Positions 2,932 to 24,035 of a DNA stretch of 24,555 nucleotides are shown in pieces. Source of the stretch: Candidatus Bathyarchaeota archaeon. Its GTDB lineage: Archaea; Thermoproteota; Bathyarchaeia; 40CM-2-53-6. The position numbers and the translations under genes were made by a program. The notes beneath the pieces are model-generated. The model saw only the letters and a list, made by a program, of their open reading frames with translations. It ran no database searches and was not told the origin of the DNA. Each line of letters starts with the position of its first letter. Positions within the stretch are counted from its first letter, which is position 1. Location: NCBI GenBank assembly GCA_005888755.1, contig VBBQ01000015.1, forward strand, positions 1 to 24,555, written 5' to 3'.

Positions 2932-3378
2932 ATGATCCGCCCCGGGCTCCGGTATCTGATACTCTTTCTCTCTCTTGGGTTGGTTGCGAGTTATGCCTCT
3001 GGGATGATTCTAACCGTATACAGTTTTCTGCCCAGCGGAACACTCGAATGGGGCTATGGTTTCCCACTCGCGTGGCAGATAAGAACAGCAACTCCTTGCG
3101 GATCTTTCGAGCCACTAGACGTTTACCCCATTTTGAATGCTCAATGCTTGAATCCTTGTTGTGACACGAACTACACAAATTGGATTTACTTCACGCTTGA
3201 CGTGCTCTTCTACATGGGAATCGGTTACTTGCTACTTCTCAGCTATCACAAACTAATCCGAGGCATAGATAGGCAAGCTAGAGAACGGGTCAACAGCCAA
3301 CCGTCAGAGCCCGAGGCTAGCGTCGAGCCAGTGAAATCCCATTCTAAATACTTCCTAAGAGTCAGAATCGTAAGATAG
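2932..3378 (+). CDS. Two-helix membrane protein with Cys-rich outside loop
   Basis: This encodes 148 residues from ATG 2932, with a GGGAG ribosome site seven bases upstream. Transmembrane helices are at about residues 8-30 and 84-106. The intervening loop of about 50 residues carries Cys57, Cys72, Cys76 and Cys77 and a sequon (NYT), so it is probably outside the cell and could form disulfides. The C-terminal 40 residues are hydrophilic and presumably cytoplasmic. No family is recognised. The gene is convergent with the zinc-ribbon gene, and about 115 bases separate the two stop codons. Confidence 0.65.
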   Translation: MIRPGLRYLILFLSLGLVASYASGMILTVYSFLPSGTLEWGYGFPLAWQIRTATPCGSFEPLDVYPILNAQCLNPCCDTNYTNWIYFTLDVLFYMGIGYLLLLSYHKLIRGIDRQARERVNSQPSEPEASVEPVKSHSKYFLRVRIVR

Positions 3379-5851: not shown

Positions 5852-6301
5852 TTACGTTGTCAGAATCGACGAGCGAGCGCCGCACGCCTCGCAGACGAGG
5901 AATGATAATCGGTCCCTTCGCTCGACTCTCGTATCCGGCCTGTGACAGACCGGGCAGATCACGAACCTGTTTGAATAGGCTCCGATTAGCCTGTTGATAG
6001 TTTCTCTGGAAAACTTGCCCTGGAAGTAGCCCTTTCCGCCTTCGAAAGACCCTGCGGTAGCCATCTCCTTAGCCAAGTATTTCAGAATCTGAAGCGGGTC
6101 TCTGTCCAAACGGTCAGCGACATCGGCAAAGTTGTGAACTATTGTACGCGCCCCAATCACCGATACGGATGCGATGGGAAGCTCGAACCGCTCCCCCGTC
6201 GTCCCAGGCTTCGTAATGCCTGCCAGTGCCCTGTCAAGTAACTGATCATAGTTGTCCGATTCGGTGACCCTACCCACAATACGCCCTTCCCGGTATTTCA
6301 A
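5852..6301 (-). CDS. eif2b: Translation initiation factor aIF2 subunit beta
   Basis: This encodes 149 residues, close to the usual 135-150 for aIF2-beta, the subunit of the heterotrimer that delivers initiator Met-tRNA to the ribosome. The N-terminal helix contains YDQLLDRAL. The core alpha-beta domain carries the family signature A-R-T-I-V-H-N-F-A-D-V-A-D-x-L-x-R-D-P and the L-K-Y-L-A-K-E-M-A-T-A-G motif. The C-terminal zinc ribbon has Cys116, Cys119, Cys137 and Cys140. The start is uncertain: TTG 6301 adds about 12 residues that look unlike the family, and an in-frame GTG at 6277 is an alternative. It is divergent from metG with at most about 75-100 bases between, and followed by DUF424. 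Confidence 0.95.
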   Translation of the reverse strand: MKYREGRIVGRVTESDNYDQLLDRALAGITKPGTTGERFELPIASVSVIGARTIVHNFADVADRLDRDPLQILKYLAKEMATAGSFEGGKGYFQGKFSRETINRLIGAYSNRFVICPVCHRPDTRVERRDRLSFLVCEACGARSSILTT

Positions 6302-6375
6302 CCGTTTCCAAGAACCGATTCTGCAAAACCCTTATCCAGCCCAGACAGCAAGAGGCGCATTTCTTTCTGGAACGG

Positions 6376-8070
6376 GTGAAAAAACTGGGAAGATGGGTTG
6401 TCTGCTCCGGATGGCCATACGTCAACGACCGGCCGCACCTCGGAACCTTCACCCAGCTTCTCTCCGCCGATGTCTACGCGCGCTATCTCAGACTGAAAGG
6501 CGAAGACGTCGTCATGGTCAGTGGAAGCGACGAGCATGGCACCCCCATCGAGGTAGAAGCCATCAAACTGGGTATTCCGCCCCGGCAGCTAACCAACAAG
6601 TATCACAAACTCATCGTCCATCTTCTCAAGGCTTTCGAGATAGAGTTCGACAACTATACTCGAACCGAGAGCCCAGTTCACAAACGGTTCGTTCGAGACT
6701 TCTACGTCAAAGTCGAAAAGAACGGCTACGTTTACAGCCAAAAGATAACACAGCTATACTGTCTGAAGGACAAACGATTCCTTCCTGACCGTTTCGTCGA
6801 AGGTGAATGCCCTTACTGTCACAACCCCAACGCCCGCGGCGACCAATGCGATAATTGTGGCAGGGTCCTCGACCCGAAGGACCTCATTAACCCTCGATGT
6901 GCCCTCGATCACGAGATCCCTGTCCAGAGAGAGTCGGAACACTGGTTCTTTGATCTGCCCAAGCTCGCAGAACTACTTCGAAAGTACATCGAAACAAATC
7001 CGAATTTTCCCGAAAACGCGCGAAACTTTAGCCTCGGCTGGATCAGGGACGGACTCAAGCCTCGCTCGCTGACTCGCGACAACGCCTGGGGCATACCAGC
7101 ACCCTTCAAGGGTGCAGAGGGAAAGACCATCTATGTTTGGATGGAAGCCGTCCTCGGATACGTTTCGGCAACAAAGGAATGGGCTGAAAAAAAGAAGAAA
7201 CCATCTTTATGGAAGAGGTACTGGTTTGACCCCCAAAGCCGCAACGTCCACTTCATAGGAAAAGACAACATTCCATTTCACGTTGTAATCTTTCCAGGGT
7301 TACTCTTGGCTACGAGAGAGAACTATGATTTGCCCTGGGAGGTCTCCTCCTCCGAGTACATACAACTCGAAGGACAAAAATTCTCCAGAAGCAGAAAAGT
7401 CGGCGTTTGGATGGACGAGGCCCTTGAGCTAGAAGGCCCAGAGTACTGGCGCTATGCCTTGATCAGCCTCAGACCCGAGCAGAAAGATACCAACTTTACC
7501 TGGGAAGAGTTCGCGAGAAAAGTCAACACAGAGCTCAACGATGTTCTCGGAAACTACGTTCATCGAACCATATCATTCACTCAAACACACTACAACGGAA
7601 AGGTCCCAAATTTCTCTGCGAGCAAGGAGCAACACGCAAAGATCCTGACATCACTTAGTTCTAGCCTCCCAAAGGTGGATGACAGGCTAGGACACTTTAG
7701 ATTGAAAGACGCTCTGGAACAAGTCGTCGAGCTGGCACGGGAAGGAAACCGGCACCTTAACGAGCATGAACCGTGGCGCCTGTACAAGACAGATGCTCAA
7801 GCTGCCGGCGAGACTCTTGGGATCTCATTACAGATCGTGGCAACCCTCGGCATACTCTTACAGCCTTTCCTTCCTTCAACTTCGAAGAAGATTTGCTCGA
7901 GCCTGACTGGGAAAGCGAGTCTTCCATGGGAATCCGCTGGCAAGACAATCATAAAACCCGGAGCGAAAATTCGCTCTCTCCAGCCTTTGTTCCACAAAAT
8001 CAGTGCGGAAAAGCTTCGTTCTCGGCTAGATGAAATCAGAAGCAGGGTTCCCATTGAAGCTGAAGCTTGA
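6376..8070 (+). CDS. metG: Methionyl-tRNA synthetase
   Basis: This encodes 564 residues from GTG 6376. The enzyme charges tRNA-Met with methionine. The class I motifs are WPYVNDRPHLGT at 13-24 (HIGH as H21-L-G-T24) and KFSRS at 335-339 (KMSKS). An inserted zinc knuckle has Cys145, Cys148, Cys158 and Cys161. The methionine-pocket region SGSDEHGTP near 50-58 is intact. The helical anticodon-binding domain follows from about 380. The C-terminal tRNA-binding extension found in bacterial MetRS is absent, as is common in archaea, where it can be a separate gene. The length and WPY-N start fit the archaeal/eukaryotic form. The 3' end overlaps the PHP gene by 41 bases if that gene starts at its first ATG. 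Confidence 0.97.
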   Translation: MKKLGRWVVCSGWPYVNDRPHLGTFTQLLSADVYARYLRLKGEDVVMVSGSDEHGTPIEVEAIKLGIPPRQLTNKYHKLIVHLLKAFEIEFDNYTRTESPVHKRFVRDFYVKVEKNGYVYSQKITQLYCLKDKRFLPDRFVEGECPYCHNPNARGDQCDNCGRVLDPKDLINPRCALDHEIPVQRESEHWFFDLPKLAELLRKYIETNPNFPENARNFSLGWIRDGLKPRSLTRDNAWGIPAPFKGAEGKTIYVWMEAVLGYVSATKEWAEKKKKPSLWKRYWFDPQSRNVHFIGKDNIPFHVVIFPGLLLATRENYDLPWEVSSSEYIQLEGQKFSRSRKVGVWMDEALELEGPEYWRYALISLRPEQKDTNFTWEEFARKVNTELNDVLGNYVHRTISFTQTHYNGKVPNFSASKEQHAKILTSLSSSLPKVDDRLGHFRLKDALEQVVELAREGNRHLNEHEPWRLYKTDAQAAGETLGISLQIVATLGILLQPFLPSTSKKICSSLTGKASLPWESAGKTIIKPGAKIRSLQPLFHKISAEKLRSRLDEIRSRVPIEAEA

Positions 8071-9970: not shown

Positions 9971-11494
9971 TTAAGGGGTTTGACCGCGGGCTTTCGGGTT
10001 ATTCCACTTGAGTGTGAGCGTCTTGGGATGTGACGCCTTCACCTCATCGATTCTTCCGACCGAAGTGTTGTGGGGAGAACTTCTTAGTCTATCCGGGTCA
10101 GTCTCAGCTTCCTTTGCCACTTTGAGGAACGCCTCGACAAGTTCGTCGAGGTCCCGGAGACTCTCAGTCTCAGGCGCCTCGACCATCATCGCCTCGTCTA
10201 CAATTTGTGGAAAATAGACAGTGGGCGAATGAAGCCCAAAATCGAGCATCCTCTTCCCAATATCCAAAGCTCTGACGCCTGTCTGTTCGTTGATCCTCTT
10301 CGCGCTCAAGACGAACTCGTGTTTCCTCTTCCGACTAAAAGGAAGTTCAAACTTGCTCCGCTCTAGAACCTTGGAAAGGACGTAGTTTGTATTCAATACC
10401 GCAGTTTCAGCGACGGCTTTGAGTCCATCAGGGCCCAGACTAAGAATATACGCATAGGCTCGGACCAAAACGCCGATGTTGCCATGAAACGCAGTCACTT
10501 TACCAACAGAGTCAGGAGCATCATAGTCGAAGAAGTACTTCTTGCCATCAAAACCGACCAATGGTACAGGTAGGAACTTTTCCAGATCTTTCCTGACCCC
10601 GACTGGCCCGGCGCCCGGTCCACCGCCTCCGTGAGGCGTTGCAAACGTCTTGTGTAGGTTAAGATGGACGATGTCGAATCCCATGTCTCCCGGGCGGACC
10701 TTCCCCAGTATCGCGTTGAAGTTCGCTCCATCATAGTACAGGAGACCCCCGGCGTCATGAACGATTTTCGCGATTTCGAGCACATTCTTCTCGAAGATGC
10801 CTAGGGTGTTGGGATTGGTGATCATCAGGCCGGCTGTCCTAGGTCCAACAACCTTTCGGAGCGCCTCAAGGTCTACCATCCCGTCATCGTTTGATGGGAC
10901 AACGACCACGTTGAATCCGGCCATTGCTGCACTGGCGGGGTTTGTTCCGTGTGCCGAGTCGGGAATGATCATTTCGCGCCGTTCATCTAACTCGCCTTTC
11001 GATCTGTGATAGGCTCGCATGATGAGCGCTCCAAGGTATTCGCCAGCTGCCCCTGCGACAGGCTGGAGGGACATTCTGCTCATGCCCGTGATCTCCGCGA
11101 GGAACTGGTCCAGCCGGTGCATTAGGGCCAGGATTCCCTGCACCGTCGATTCGTCTTGCTCGGGATGTATCTTTTCCAGTTTCGGATTCTGGGCTATTGC
11201 TTCGGAGACTTTCGGGTTGTACTTCATTGTGCAACTCCCCAGTGGATAGATTCCCAAGTCGACTGCAAAGTTCTCCTGAGAGAGGCGCGTGTAGTGACGA
11301 ACAACTTCCGGTTCAGAAACCTCGGGCAACGGAGGCAGCCCGTTTCTCAACAAGGCTTTTGGGACGCCACTCCAAGGATCCCGCCCCACGACCTTCCGTT
11401 CGATATCGCTGGGTTTTGACGGGGTGTGTCCTCTCTTGCCGTTTCCGGATCGTTCTATGATGAGCGGTTCGTTCCACTTTGCCTGGTGAAACAA
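9971..11494 (-). CDS. gcvPB: Glycine dehydrogenase (decarboxylating) subunit 2
   Basis: This encodes 507 residues from TTG 11494. It is the C-terminal half of the glycine cleavage P-protein, which decarboxylates glycine and passes the aminomethyl group to lipoyl-GcvH. Visible hallmarks are the LGSCTMKYNP segment (86-95), the active-site PVAGAAGEY region, SAHGTNPASA (180-189), the Asp of LYYDGANFN, and the PLP-binding Lys282 in NLHKTFATPHGGGGPG. Length and order match subunit 2 of the split enzyme. It follows gcvPA after a three-base gap, so the two are cotranslated. GcvT, GcvH and lipoamide dehydrogenase are not in this window and must lie elsewhere. Confidence 0.97.
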   Translation of the reverse strand: MFHQAKWNEPLIIERSGNGKRGHTPSKPSDIERKVVGRDPWSGVPKALLRNGLPPLPEVSEPEVVRHYTRLSQENFAVDLGIYPLGSCTMKYNPKVSEAIAQNPKLEKIHPEQDESTVQGILALMHRLDQFLAEITGMSRMSLQPVAGAAGEYLGALIMRAYHRSKGELDERREMIIPDSAHGTNPASAAMAGFNVVVVPSNDDGMVDLEALRKVVGPRTAGLMITNPNTLGIFEKNVLEIAKIVHDAGGLLYYDGANFNAILGKVRPGDMGFDIVHLNLHKTFATPHGGGGPGAGPVGVRKDLEKFLPVPLVGFDGKKYFFDYDAPDSVGKVTAFHGNIGVLVRAYAYILSLGPDGLKAVAETAVLNTNYVLSKVLERSKFELPFSRKRKHEFVLSAKRINEQTGVRALDIGKRMLDFGLHSPTVYFPQIVDEAMMVEAPETESLRDLDELVEAFLKVAKEAETDPDRLRSSPHNTSVGRIDEVKASHPKTLTLKWNNPKARGQTP

Positions 11495-20366: not shown

Positions 20367-21287
20367 TTAGAGAGACGTTTCTCCGAGTGATGATAGAACC
20401 TCGTCGATGGTCGTGAAGGTTTTCTCTGGGAGTTTCTCAAGGAATACACGAGCCCTGACTCGTTCTTCGGCAGTCTTGTCAAAGAGCTTCCACCCTTGTT
20501 CGTCTACGAGTCGGGACTTGCTAGTCGGGAACCTCGCATCTTCGCTCAAGACCTCGCTTAGTGATTTGAGCCCGACCTGCCCCGTTAGCGAATGAAACTG
20601 TCCTGAATTCAAGAAAGTCTTCAACCGGGCAGCATCTCTGTACATTCTTACCCCATGAAATGCTAGAATGCTATTCTCGAATTTTGGGCCGGAAGCTTTG
20701 GCGGCGATATCTTGGAGCTCGTTATCGTCAAACTCGTATACGTTCTGGTTTCCCTTGCCGAACAACCTGCTGTAGAGAATATTCGACTCCACATTGGGGT
20801 ACTGTCTTGAGATGTCAACACTGTGTACGGCGTCGTGGTCCTGTAGAGCCTTCAACGTATCATCTGTTGGCTCTCCTCCTCGAAACTCAAAGGCAACGCG
20901 GGTCCTGCCGAGGCTTACCGTCGAAAGAAACGCGCTGAGTTTGGAGGAGAGCTCTTCGTCCCCCACAAGCTCCTTCGGAATCAGGATTATCAAAGCGGTT
21001 GCCCTAAGTTGTCCGCAAATCTTCTCCATCGAATCCACCAGGCGAACGTTTTTCGATGTCAATTCTAGCCTGTGAAGTTCCGCGAGATCCTTGTGACACC
21101 TCACAGAGAACTCGAACCCAGACGGGACTCTGCGGCGCCAACTCGATACTGCCACCGGACTTGGTAGCCGATAGTACGTGCTGTTGACTTCTACGAAATC
21201 GTAGGCAGACGAGTAAGCTTTCAGCCGGTCACCGCTCGGGACAGAGAAGTAGTCCCACCCGCCTGCACCGATACTGAGCTGACCCAT
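20367..21287 (-). CDS. DUF72 (YecE-like) TIM-barrel protein
   Basis: This encodes 306 residues from ATG 21287. DUF72 proteins have a TIM-barrel-like fold of uncertain activity. Seen here are the opening IGAGGWDYFS, VEVNSTYYRLP (32-42) with the near-invariant E-x-N-S-T-Y-Y, FEFSVRCHKDL, an L-I-I-L-I-P strand and VAFEFRGGEP. Length is slightly above the usual 230-290, with a C-terminal extension from about 240 (LTGQVGLKSLSEVL onward) that is not a normal part of the family and could be an extra helical domain. A GTTTATGAG TATA-like element lies about 33 bases upstream. The gene converges on ParA and diverges from the Rep islet. Confidence 0.88.
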   Translation of the reverse strand: MGQLSIGAGGWDYFSVPSGDRLKAYSSAYDFVEVNSTYYRLPSPVAVSSWRRRVPSGFEFSVRCHKDLAELHRLELTSKNVRLVDSMEKICGQLRATALIILIPKELVGDEELSSKLSAFLSTVSLGRTRVAFEFRGGEPTDDTLKALQDHDAVHSVDISRQYPNVESNILYSRLFGKGNQNVYEFDDNELQDIAAKASGPKFENSILAFHGVRMYRDAARLKTFLNSGQFHSLTGQVGLKSLSEVLSEDARFPTSKSRLVDEQGWKLFDKTAEERVRARVFLEKLPEKTFTTIDEVLSSLGETSL

Positions 21288-21375
21288 ACCTTCATGCCTA
21301 ATTGATTTGTTTGACTCATAAACGGCGTGGTGGGTAAGAATGGGTGAGGGCTCTGAATGTGTCGGAGCCTGGAGG

Positions 21376-21418
21376 GAAGCGGTTTGCTTCGTTTCTCAGT
21401 CGGAGGAATTTGTCCTCC
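21376..21418. other. Tandem hairpins upstream of Rep, possible replication origin
   Basis: GAAGC-GGTTT-GCTTC (21376-21390) is a perfect five-base-pair hairpin with a five-base loop. GGAGGA-ATTTG-TCCTCC (21402-21418) is a perfect six-base-pair hairpin with a five-base loop. They are eleven bases apart and begin about 70 bases before the Rep start. HUH replication initiators commonly nick in or beside a small hairpin near their own gene, so one of these is a candidate double-strand origin. No experimental or consensus nick site can be assigned from sequence alone. Confidence 0.4.
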
Positions 21419-21447
21419 CCGGTATCTTTGCGTCTTCCGCTTGATGG

Positions 21448-22218
21448 TTGTCTCTTGATGCTTATCTTGCCTCTCGTTTAGAGGGGTATCGTAGCTGGCG
21501 TGATGATGCAGTCTCTCTGACTTTTGAGAAGCTTACTGCTCCCGTGGGCGTGAATCCGGTTGCTCATTGGGATCGTCCTGGTCCGGGCGCCATTAAGGTG
21601 CTTCCGAAAGGCGTCACTCGTGAGCTTATTGTTGTGAAGGGTTCGAAGCGTGGAAATGATGTGTATTCTCAGGCTTTGAATCGTCGGATTTCTCGTTGGC
21701 TTCAGTCTGTCAGTATTCCAGTTCGATTCTGGCCCTTCTGGAAGCGTCGAGTTCGAGGTTTTTGGTTGATGATAACGTATACTCTCGACCGCTCGCTTTT
21801 CTCGTTAGAGGAGGGTTGGCGGAAAATTCGGAAAGTGTCGAATCGGCATCTTTCATGGCTTCGGAAGCGTTTTGGTCGGCTTCGGTATGTCTCTGTGCTT
21901 CAGGCTCAATCTGACGGCTATGCTCATCTTCATTTTATCGTGGAATTCTTGAATCATACGTTTGCTGGTTTTCGTCATGTTGATCGTGATGGTAGGCTCT
22001 CCTGGCGCGTTAGTGAGAAGTACGATATTGCCGAGAACTGGGCTTCCGGTCACGTTGATGTTAAGCTCGTTCAATCGTTGAAAGGTGACTTGTGGTATCT
22101 CGCCAAGTATCTTGTTCGTTCAGCTGACTCCCTGAAGGGTGAATTAGGCATGGCCCTTTCCCGTGATTTTGGCCGTCGGGTCTGGTCCAAGAGTCGGAGC
22201 TGGCCGGCGTCGACTTGA
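21448..22218 (+). CDS. HUH rolling-circle replication initiator (Rep)
   Basis: This encodes 256 residues from TTG 21448; an in-frame stop directly upstream rules out an earlier start. Three Rep motifs are in order: motif 1, a hydrophobic strand FWLMITYTLDRS at 105-116; motif 2, GYAHLHFIVEF with HUH histidines 160 and 162; motif 3, WYLAKYLVRS with Tyr217, Lys220 and Tyr221. The Tyr-x-x-Lys-Tyr arrangement is that of the two-tyrosine phiX174 gene A superfamily, which nicks one strand and stays bound to the 5' end. No helicase domain follows. Codons end in T far more often (CGT, TCT, CTT, GTT) than in neighbouring ParA or GcvP genes, a sign of foreign origin. Two small ORFs follow with overlaps. 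It is probably an integrated plasmid or virus gene. Confidence 0.82.
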   Translation: MSLDAYLASRLEGYRSWRDDAVSLTFEKLTAPVGVNPVAHWDRPGPGAIKVLPKGVTRELIVVKGSKRGNDVYSQALNRRISRWLQSVSIPVRFWPFWKRRVRGFWLMITYTLDRSLFSLEEGWRKIRKVSNRHLSWLRKRFGRLRYVSVLQAQSDGYAHLHFIVEFLNHTFAGFRHVDRDGRLSWRVSEKYDIAENWASGHVDVKLVQSLKGDLWYLAKYLVRSADSLKGELGMALSRDFGRRVWSKSRSWPAST

Positions 22219-22379
22219 TTAGGAATAGTGATAACTCAAACCCAACTCTTCCGGATCTGTCTCAGGTTCGTGTCATCGTTCCTACGGATCCTCTTCGCTC
22301 TCTCTACTCTCGTTGCGTCATCGTGAGATGGCGGTTTGAGGGTGTTTCATACCCCTCTCGGATTGGTGGAGATGGTTAG
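22215..22379 (+). CDS. Small ORF overlapping the Rep stop
   Basis: TTG 22215 overlaps the Rep TGA (TTGA), the usual sign of translational coupling, and opens a 54-residue frame. It ends in TAG inside the next small ORF. The peptide starts polar and Asn/Pro-rich (IRNSDNSNPTLPDLS), then reads VRVIVPTDPLRSLYSRCVIV, which looks like two short beta strands. Codons share the T-ending habit of Rep. No family is recognised. It may be a copy-control or accessory protein of the same replicon, or a remnant. Confidence 0.4.
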   Translation: MIRNSDNSNPTLPDLSQVRVIVPTDPLRSLYSRCVIVRWRFEGVSYPSRIGGDG

Positions 22380-22524
22380 AATTGGGAGCACTCGTGTGTC
22401 TCATGGGCTTCGGAAGATTGCTTTACGGAAACTCTGGTGGCTAGCGAACAATGCCAGGTCTCTGGGTGTTCCACTTTCGTCTAGTTCAACCAGAGCGACA
22501 GCGAGGCGCATGAATGGGGTCTAG
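22372..22524 (+). CDS. Small very basic ORF downstream of Rep
   Basis: ATG 22372 overlaps the previous small ORF by eight bases and encodes 50 residues. TTG 22336 would add 12. The peptide is strongly basic, with about ten Arg/Lys and almost no acidic residues. It has a central amphipathic helix (LRKIALRKLWWLANNARSLG), which suggests nucleic-acid or membrane binding. It ends in a TAG that shares bases with the convergent secreted-protein stop. No family is recognised. Its overlap and codon habit tie it to the Rep islet. Confidence 0.4.
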   Translation: MVRIGSTRVSHGLRKIALRKLWWLANNARSLGVPLSSSSTRATARRMNGV

Positions 22525-23270
22525 GGAGCAGATACGTCCATGACAAATCCTGTGCTGCCCAACGGCGTGTAGAAGCTGAGAGTTGAGGATCCGCCCCCGA
22601 ACTGAGAATACGTAGTTATCGTGAATGTGAAGGTAGTGGTTCCGCCTGGTCGTATCAAGATACTAGTTGGGATTCCTGACGCGCCCCAGTAGAAACCGCT
22701 GTTCTGGTAAAAGGACGTTGTGAAGTTGCCCGCAAGCCCGTTCAAGGAGGTCAATGTCACTGACACGGTACTGGAGGAAGCGGGCGGGACTTTGATCGGG
22801 CTTGGGTTTGTACTAAGGGCCAATCCTCGCGCGATAACGTTCACGGTGACCGAGTGAGATAGTCTGCCGCTGGTCCCGGTGACGATCAAGGAATAGTTTC
22901 CTGCGGTAGCAACGCGGATGGTAAGATTCAGGCTTTGGTCTCGGCCCAGCAGAACTTGACTTACGTCAATCTGATTGCTGCCGTCCACCTTGAGAAGACG
23001 TTCGTTTACTCCGTTCGGGGAGGATACCGCCATAGAGACTATGCCTGTAAAGTTGTTCACTGCGCCAACGGTGATCGTACTCCAATAAGGGCCATCCGAC
23101 CCGTTCAGTAGAGTCTCGCGGTTTGGGTTGGCGGTAAGGCTGAAGTCAGGTTGTGAGGTGGTCGTTTTCAGATTCGTTGCGACATAAATCGATATTGAAG
23201 CAGCTGCACCTACGATCGCGACCAAGAGTAGCCAAGCAGGTACGGATTTTCTTAGCAGCGTGAATTTCAT
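22521..23270 (-). CDS. Secreted or anchored Ig-like beta-sandwich protein
   Basis: This encodes 249 residues from ATG 23270; a TTG at 23288 would add six. After a short basic start, one hydrophobic helix (about 10-31, VPAWLLLVAIVGAAASISIYVA) serves as signal anchor or signal peptide. The rest is Ser/Thr/Asn-rich beta sequence with two repeat units of about 90 residues, each opening with an L-x-x-N-P motif (SLTANPN near 46 and ALSTNPSP near 150) and carrying G-x-Y-S-L-I-V-T-G or similar strands. Several N-x-S/T sequons are present. This is typical of archaeal cell-surface proteins with tandem Ig-like folds; binding partner unknown. A weak TATA-like ATTATGC lies about 30 bases upstream. Confidence 0.75.
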   Translation of the reverse strand: MKFTLLRKSVPAWLLLVAIVGAAASISIYVATNLKTTTSQPDFSLTANPNRETLLNGSDGPYWSTITVGAVNNFTGIVSMAVSSPNGVNERLLKVDGSNQIDVSQVLLGRDQSLNLTIRVATAGNYSLIVTGTSGRLSHSVTVNVIARGLALSTNPSPIKVPPASSSTVSVTLTSLNGLAGNFTTSFYQNSGFYWGASGIPTSILIRPGGTTTFTFTITTYSQFGGGSSTLSFYTPLGSTGFVMDVSAP

Positions 23271-23445
23271 CGTACTCGTTGACTCCAATCCAGCTCTTTA
23301 GCATAATGTCGAAGTTGGACAGGCTTATTCGGTATTCATCTCGTGGGATTGCCGCCGAGATAGGCATAGTATGCCTTCGGGTGTTTCTGTTGGCGTCGGA
23401 AAAGTGCCTTAGGAAAACCCGTGGTTTGTGCTGGTTGTCTGCGGA

Positions 23446-23751
23446 TCAGGCGACGCTAGGAGCCGCCCGCTGTTCCTTTTCCTTCTTCAAGTGCCACGAC
23501 CTATGTAGGTTCATATCGTTAACACTGATGCTGCAAATTGGGCAAAACGGCGAGTCATCTTTCTCGAAAATGATCGTCGAGTAGCTTGAAATCTGCATAC
23601 TAAGACCTCCAAAATAACTCTCAGAACGTGAGAACTGAGAGATGTTCTTGACACTCCAACCGTTCATTACCCAGCGTTGAATGAGAAAGTGCATTGCCCG
23701 AATCTCTTCCTCGTCATCAGTTCGAACCGTGACACTCTGGATCTGCTTCAT
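23446..23751 (-). CDS. Small protein with a C-terminal C2H2 zinc finger
   Basis: This encodes 101 residues from ATG 23751. The open frame extends to 23904, but that extension is low-complexity and unlikely to be translated; GGGGAAG lies just before ATG 23751. The N-terminal domain (SVTVRTDDEEEIRAMHFLIQ...NISQFSRSESYFGG) looks like a small alpha-beta fold. The C-terminus carries C-P-I-C-x9-H-x3-H followed by a basic run (LKKEKEQR), a single classical-type C2H2 finger. Archaeal one-finger proteins of this kind often bind DNA and are common on archaeal plasmids and viruses. It lies about 900 bases from the Rep islet, but no direct link is visible. The family is otherwise unrecognised. Confidence 0.6.
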   Translation of the reverse strand: MKQIQSVTVRTDDEEEIRAMHFLIQRWVMNGWSVKNISQFSRSESYFGGLSMQISSYSTIIFEKDDSPFCPICSISVNDMNLHRSWHLKKEKEQRAAPSVA

Positions 23752-24035
23752 TCTTCCCCATGAATAAGCTAGCAAGAAGCCTATATCCTTAGGCGCTCGT
23801 TCGTTCCCTTTACTCTCTCTGATAGGGGCAGTCCCTAATCGTGGTGAGCCCTTGGGAAGGGTGCAAAGTTGTCTCTTTTGCTCTCGGAAGTCTTTATTTG
23901 GCAAGTTGTACCAATGGCTGTGGTGTTGACCGTGAGTCTCTCTCTGCTGGTCCAGAAGGGATTCTAGTGGGTTTTGCGGCGCTCACATTGTGTGTTCGAG
24001 TCCTGATCGCATAAATAACAGGAGGGCAAATTCAC

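Follow-up and report, generated by a model that had tools for sequence, protein, structure and literature searches.

Small integrated elements that combine a rolling-circle replication protein with an integrase have been described in archaea. Among the cryptic integrated elements of Thaumarchaeota, NitAQ6f-E2 is a small element that encodes a rolling-circle endonuclease (Rep) together with a tyrosine integrase, and intergenic integration sites are also reported for the thaumarchaeal set (15 of 68; PMC6563490). The small Methanosarcina plasmid pC2A carries an HUH RepA, the recombinase SsrA, and two small ORFs (PMC9569500). The integrating archaeal element SNJ2, whose initiator belongs to the Rep-Arvir group, replicates by the rolling-circle mode after excision and has a hairpin origin beside rep (PMC13107129). 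The locus described here shares features with each of these systems and lies in a 24,555-nucleotide window, the whole stretch of DNA that was analyzed, which is contig C14 of a 2.0-Mb draft genome (G000) of Bathyarchaeia. It differs from NitAQ6f-E2 in host class and in its Rep, given that the Rep of NitAQ6f-E2 is SNJ1-like and the window Rep matches PF23343 (PMC6563490); for the bathyarchaeal element, moreover, the site, core repeat, skew, and cross-species sharing can be followed within one family. In contrast to the window element, pC2A is a free plasmid with a larger RepA (PMC9569500); our control search with PF23343 returned matches in Methanosarcina acetivorans. Unlike the window Rep, Rep-Arvir sits with Rep_trans rather than with HUH proteins (PMC13107129); its KHYYM motif is absent from the window Rep (which has YLAKY instead), and no viral genes accompany the bathyarchaeal Rep. 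Because thaumarchaeal elements with an integrase and rolling-circle protein are known, we assign the element to an already described kind, of which we found no bathyarchaeal example in the literature: small integrative plasmids of Bathyarchaeia are not described in the open-access papers searched, and the word "rolling" is absent from a 2024 survey of Bathyarchaeia viruses (PMC10848311). The suggestion in the first-pass annotation that the locus represents an undescribed plasmid or virus family therefore holds in that IMG/VR and the plasmid and phage collections contain no relative, but not in that integrated rolling-circle elements have already been described in archaea (PMC6563490). We consider it highly probable that the Rep islet forms the left end of a plasmid of soil Bathyarchaeia that replicates by the rolling-circle mode and integrates into the chromosome, in other words a cryptic integrated element.

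Results

The Rep gene begins with TTG, and its 256-residue product matches PF23343 (REP_ORF2-G2P) in Pfam at 34.8 bits against a cut-off of 27.8 (E=2e-8) and the PHROGs family phrog_3584, "replication initiation protein" (E=3e-5). The Rep copies of two related genomes, G003 and G013, likewise score above the PF23343 cut-off. The HUH and Tyr-x-x-Lys-Tyr motifs follow one another in the order first reported, with KRGNDVY at residues 67-73, TLD at 112-114, HLH at 160-162 (H160-L-H162), and YLAKY at 217-221 (Y217-L-A-K-Y221). H162, Y217, K220, and Y221 are invariant and H160 is nearly invariant in an alignment of 11 bathyarchaeal Reps. Three residues separate the two tyrosines (YxxKY), a pattern that matches the phiX174-A two-tyrosine class at the level of the motif only. 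The earlier proposal of an HUH, two-tyrosine Rep in an archaeal host is thus borne out by the profile match, the motifs, and the bathyarchaeal origin of the contig. PDB sequence searches with Rep returned no solved relative, and an AlphaFold model built with two sequences had a pLDDT of 37.8, too low to use.

Alignment of the DNA with G003 and G013 showed that one base is absent from the window Rep at about position 22203, so that a 310-aa Rep is split into the 256-aa ORF and "mini-ORF 1." An error in the assembly could account for the absent base. Both overlaps in the first-pass annotation are real, namely, TTGA at 22215-22218 and the 8-base ATGGTTAG at 22372-22379, where mini-ORF 2 begins on the Rep stop; however, we rejected mini-ORF 1 as a gene of its own, given that it is the Rep C terminus read out of frame. 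Mini-ORF 2 is a possible candidate for a small regulator. Selection on Rep is purifying (dN/dS 0.09-0.15), and the C-terminal tail is constrained like the rest of the protein in the relatives (dN/dS 0.05-0.10). Given that Rep is constrained even though two of its three copies are damaged, selection is probably exerted on functional copies located elsewhere.

Table 1. Features of the Rep locus and its surroundings, in window coordinates
Feature	Position	Strand	Basis or remark
Host flank, DUF72 gene; upstream edge is the attachment site	20367..21287	-	Pfam match, locus comparison
attL core CATACCTTC, 9 bp	21285..21293	.	Overlaps DUF72 start codon; repeat at other element end
Rep leader, candidate promoter and/or double-strand origin	21294..21447	+	Conserved between genomes
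Hairpin 1, GAAGC-GGTTT-GCTTC, 5-bp stem	21376..21390	+	Identical in all three locus-bearing genomes
Hairpin 2, GGAGGA-ATTTG-TCCTCC, 6-bp stem	21402..21418	+	Kept in three genomes, one loop change in G013
Rep, HUH/two-tyrosine (PF23343), N-terminal 256 aa	21448..22218	+	Frameshift-truncated relative to 310-aa G003 protein
"Mini-ORF 1," C-terminal part of Rep in next frame	22215..22379	+	In frame and intact in G003 and G013 (DNA alignment)
"Mini-ORF 2," 50 aa from ATG, net charge +10	22372..22524	+	Truncated in G003, broken in G013
Cargo: Ig/fn3-like surface protein, N-terminal membrane segment	22521..23288	-	Member of large host family; unskewed codons
Cargo: 152-aa protein, C2H2-like motif	23446..23904	-	Near-identical in G013 (dS 0.016)
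Cargo: small multi-pass membrane protein, near contig end	24036..24434	+	Inside element

The two perfect small hairpins noted upstream of Rep are present in the leader (Table 1), which shows 7-10 differences per 154 nt between genomes and is thus less diverged than Rep is at synonymous sites (dS 0.21-0.38). At least two such perfect hairpins occur in 26% of same-sized (163 nt) stretches of the window; their number is no higher than chance, and only their conservation is notable. We also considered TCTCCCG as an origin motif and rejected it, given that it lies upstream of four of nine other Reps, which does not exceed block-shuffled sequence, and is absent from the window element.

The extent of the element was revealed by G003, a soil relative in which, when compared to the empty site of G006, where both flanks are joined directly, 4,276 bp are cleanly inserted at the same site with CATACCTTC at the boundaries. 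The 9-bp sequence flanks the G003 element as direct repeats, and the element has the genes for an unbroken 310-aa Rep and a 441-aa tyrosine recombinase at its opposite ends. The repeat was found at the far end of the element in G003, in G013, and on contig C15 of the window genome, and the earliest potential start of another, divergently oriented DUF72-family gene lies immediately beside the core. Seven genus members (G006, G007, G008, G011, G012, G015, and G017) have an empty site with a single copy of the core, which carries one mismatch in G011 and G015. Judged from these comparisons, the Rep islet makes up just the left end of an integrated element that extends further. It was first described as a minimal three-gene replicon, which does not fit the 4.28-kb element with its recombinase at the other end in G003; that the islet is foreign, on the other hand, is correct. 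The mode of integration had been left open for want of a visible integrase or attachment site, and it is now largely answered by the 9-bp repeats, the recombinase, and the empty sites.

In the G003 recombinase, R149, H249-x-x-R252, and Y284 are invariant and H275 is nearly invariant across 10 relatives. The G003 protein alone scores 19.2 against the Pfam Phage_integrase profile, below the cut-off of 27.1, and its relatives at loci L092 and L098 score above that cut-off, with the one at L087 reaching 27.0. Apart from this integrase, no capsid or conjugation genes were found in the G003 element with Pfam and PHROGs. HUH enzymes also serve as transposases, and the element could in principle be a transposon moved by the HUH enzyme itself, similar to IS91 or IS200, without a plasmid stage. 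We judge this extremely improbable given the site-specific insertion at one point, the 9-bp core, the tyrosine recombinase at the other end, and the Pfam assignment of Rep to a replication initiator family, PF23343, and to no transposase family.

The codon bias of Rep extends to the whole element as a strand skew. Rep favors T-ending codons (T3 0.46-0.48), with T3 of 0.46 and A3 of 0.08 compared to T3 of 0.11-0.23 in nine neighboring core genes. The G003 integrase, on the opposite strand, has A3 of 0.40, C3 of 0.38, and T3 of 0.07; read along a single strand, the two genes are alike rich in T and G. The TA skew is +0.31 across the whole 4.28 kb, is -0.10 and -0.05 in the flanks, ends at the att sites, and exceeds that of all 536 overlapping host segments of the same size (maximum 0.19). 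The T-ending codons set against the flanking core genes in the first-pass annotation are therefore real, but they reflect a strand-wide skew rather than a shared origin of the genes. From the mirrored bias and the element-wide skew we infer that the element passes through a rolling-circle stage in which the Rep-sense strand is exposed; a T/G excess is what would be expected of rolling-circle replication with exposed single strands. A comparable mirror of T-ending and A-ending genes in geminiviruses has been used to infer single-strand deamination (PMC3564115). Strong T3 skew was seen for two other bathyarchaeal Reps (L094 and L091) and was weak or absent in the others, and integrases of the same family located away from any PF23343 Rep are mostly without skew.

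The same mirror between strands, as in single-stranded DNA viruses (PMC3564115), would also suit a small integrating virus of Bathyarchaeia, perhaps single-stranded or pleomorphic, in which Rep and the integrase would serve replication and the membrane and Ig-like proteins would be virion parts. Ig-like and multi-pass membrane proteins are indeed among the cargo, and betapleolipoviruses such as SNJ2 also integrate via a recombinase (PMC13107129). We nevertheless regard a provirus as unlikely, since Pfam and PHROGs revealed no capsid, spike, packaging ATPase, or other viral hallmark, 4.28 kb leaves little space for virion genes, and the Ig-like protein is unskewed, belongs to a set of many host paralogues, and is missing from the G003 copy. 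A particular form of this idea, in which such a virus has a long-lived single-stranded genome and packages the Rep-sense strand, would explain the unusual strength of the T/G skew and is, in our estimation, quite unlikely. If true, it would add single-stranded DNA viruses to Bathyarchaeia, a host class whose viral families, as proposed in the 2024 survey, all fall within Duplodnaviria, Adnaviria, and the spindle-shaped viruses (PMC10848311).

Only one complete element is known, and only the G003 copy looks complete. The window contig ends at 24555, short of the right end of the element; contig C15 of the same genome holds attR and integrase residues 1-73 only, and no intact integrase gene was found in that genome. 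Given the frameshifted Rep and the recovery of only these first 73 residues, the window copy is probably damaged and inactive, as read from the draft assembly. Contigs C14 and C15 overlap by 273 bp (window 23154-23426 and the end of C15) at 96% identity inside the element and then diverge. The two contigs may therefore come from different strains, and their divergence suggests either that strains vary here or that the element exists in two versions. In G013, a TGA lies inside Rep, and the element has shrunk to 2,836 bp and lacks the integrase. The cargo genes look like later captures, given that they are without skew and that the Ig-like protein (T3 0.19) has many host paralogues. A small membrane protein encoded in the window far from the islet is also homologous to a cargo membrane protein of the G003 element (window 2932-3378 and L044:5828-6217).

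Rep occurs in 3 of 18 genus genomes and in none of 20 other genomes of the order, always beside the same DUF72 gene. Deposits of the genus with the same gene include "Candidatus Bathyarchaeota archaeon BA_21" and "Crenarchaeota archaeon 13_1_40CM_3_52_10." The identical site in three genomes, together with a Rep dS similar to that of the DUF72 flank (0.35-0.40), could reflect a domesticated, vertically inherited chromosomal locus without present mobility, with all three copies descending from one old insertion. Several observations make this very improbable. The empty G006 is nested among the occupied genomes in flank trees, and the trees of the two flanks disagree; the integrase fragments of G000 and G003 share 75% protein identity compared to 91.5% identity of the DNA flanks; and two of the three Reps are broken, which leaves no evident host function. 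A contig of G002 starts within the element, and its 45-bp right arm is identical to that of G003 (45/45), although the host flank past the core is only 78.8% identical (21% diverged); the matching G002 contig, which carries the DUF72 gene, terminates at CCCATA. The G002 arm is best explained, on this comparison, by a recent independent integration at the same site. In addition, the window and G013 share 98-99% identity over the cargo stretch at window positions 23337-23786, compared to about 91% for the flanks. The related free circles that the first-pass annotation had envisaged were not encountered: IMG/VR (searched with the single sequence and an alignment), PLSDB, and INPHARED yielded no free circle and no relative of Rep or the integrase, IMG/VR contained no attP junction or element arm, and the genus genomes contained no attP.

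Of the 256 genomes of the class, 16 contain PF23343 Reps that score above the cut-off, and one of these Reps (L084) probably stems from a contaminant. The L084 contig (G055:C24, 6,168 bp), which lies in a Bathyarchaeia MAG, was dropped from the Rep set as gokushovirus-like; its gokushovirus-like Rep and 55-bp terminal overlap make it likely that this contig is the complete, circular genome of a microvirus and entered the bin as a contaminant. The remaining Reps of the class share the KRGNDVY, TLTYD-like, HUH, and YxxKY motifs, and those beyond the genus are 21-33% identical to the window Rep. The window Rep resembles the PF23343 family at large in its above-cut-off score and in having HUH followed by YxxKY, whereas the bathyarchaeal members form a group of their own with the conserved N-terminal KRGNDVY. 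Recombinases of the same family as that of G003 adjoin Rep in L092 and lie within several kilobases of it in L087 and L098. Outside the class, we found fragments or weak Rep matches only and no close relative. Another contig, L096 (G223:C5, 7,719 bp), encodes a bathyarchaeal-type Rep at 6346-7299 and, at 953-2377, an ATPase that weakly matches a terminase; it may represent a virus or plasmid with a Rep of this type. Short Rep fragments that cover just the N or the C terminus are scattered in Bathyarchaeia (G065, G075, G076, and G094), suggesting many decayed insertions. At L086 (G216:C45), a broken Rep at 6222-7052 and a C-terminal Rep piece at 10090-10293 lie around approximately 3 kb of host-type genes.

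Discussion

The Rep family and motifs, the recombinase residues, the att repeats, the empty sites, the whole-element skew, and the sharing across species, as read from the genomes, all point to an integrative rolling-circle plasmid. We propose that the tyrosine recombinase would pair the 9-bp core on a circle of approximately 4.3 kb with the chromosomal core between the two divergent DUF72-family genes, resulting in insertion. The reverse part of the cycle, namely, excision, the free circle, nicking, and the position of the origin, is what we infer from these features. After excision, Rep would nick the origin using the tyrosines of YxxKY, and the origin probably lies within the conserved, hairpin-bearing leader. 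The displaced strand would then be copied via a single-stranded intermediate, and its repeated exposure could produce the T/G excess.

The mirrored bias of Rep and integrase offers a simple test of rolling-circle ancestry for integrated islets, in which the sign to look for is a skew that continues through genes of either orientation and ends at the att sites. Furthermore, a vector for Bathyarchaeia, a class that is hard to study, could plausibly be built, in replicating or integrating form, on a 4.28-kb element that has a Rep, an integrase, and a defined attB, a site that is vacant in no fewer than seven genomes of one genus.
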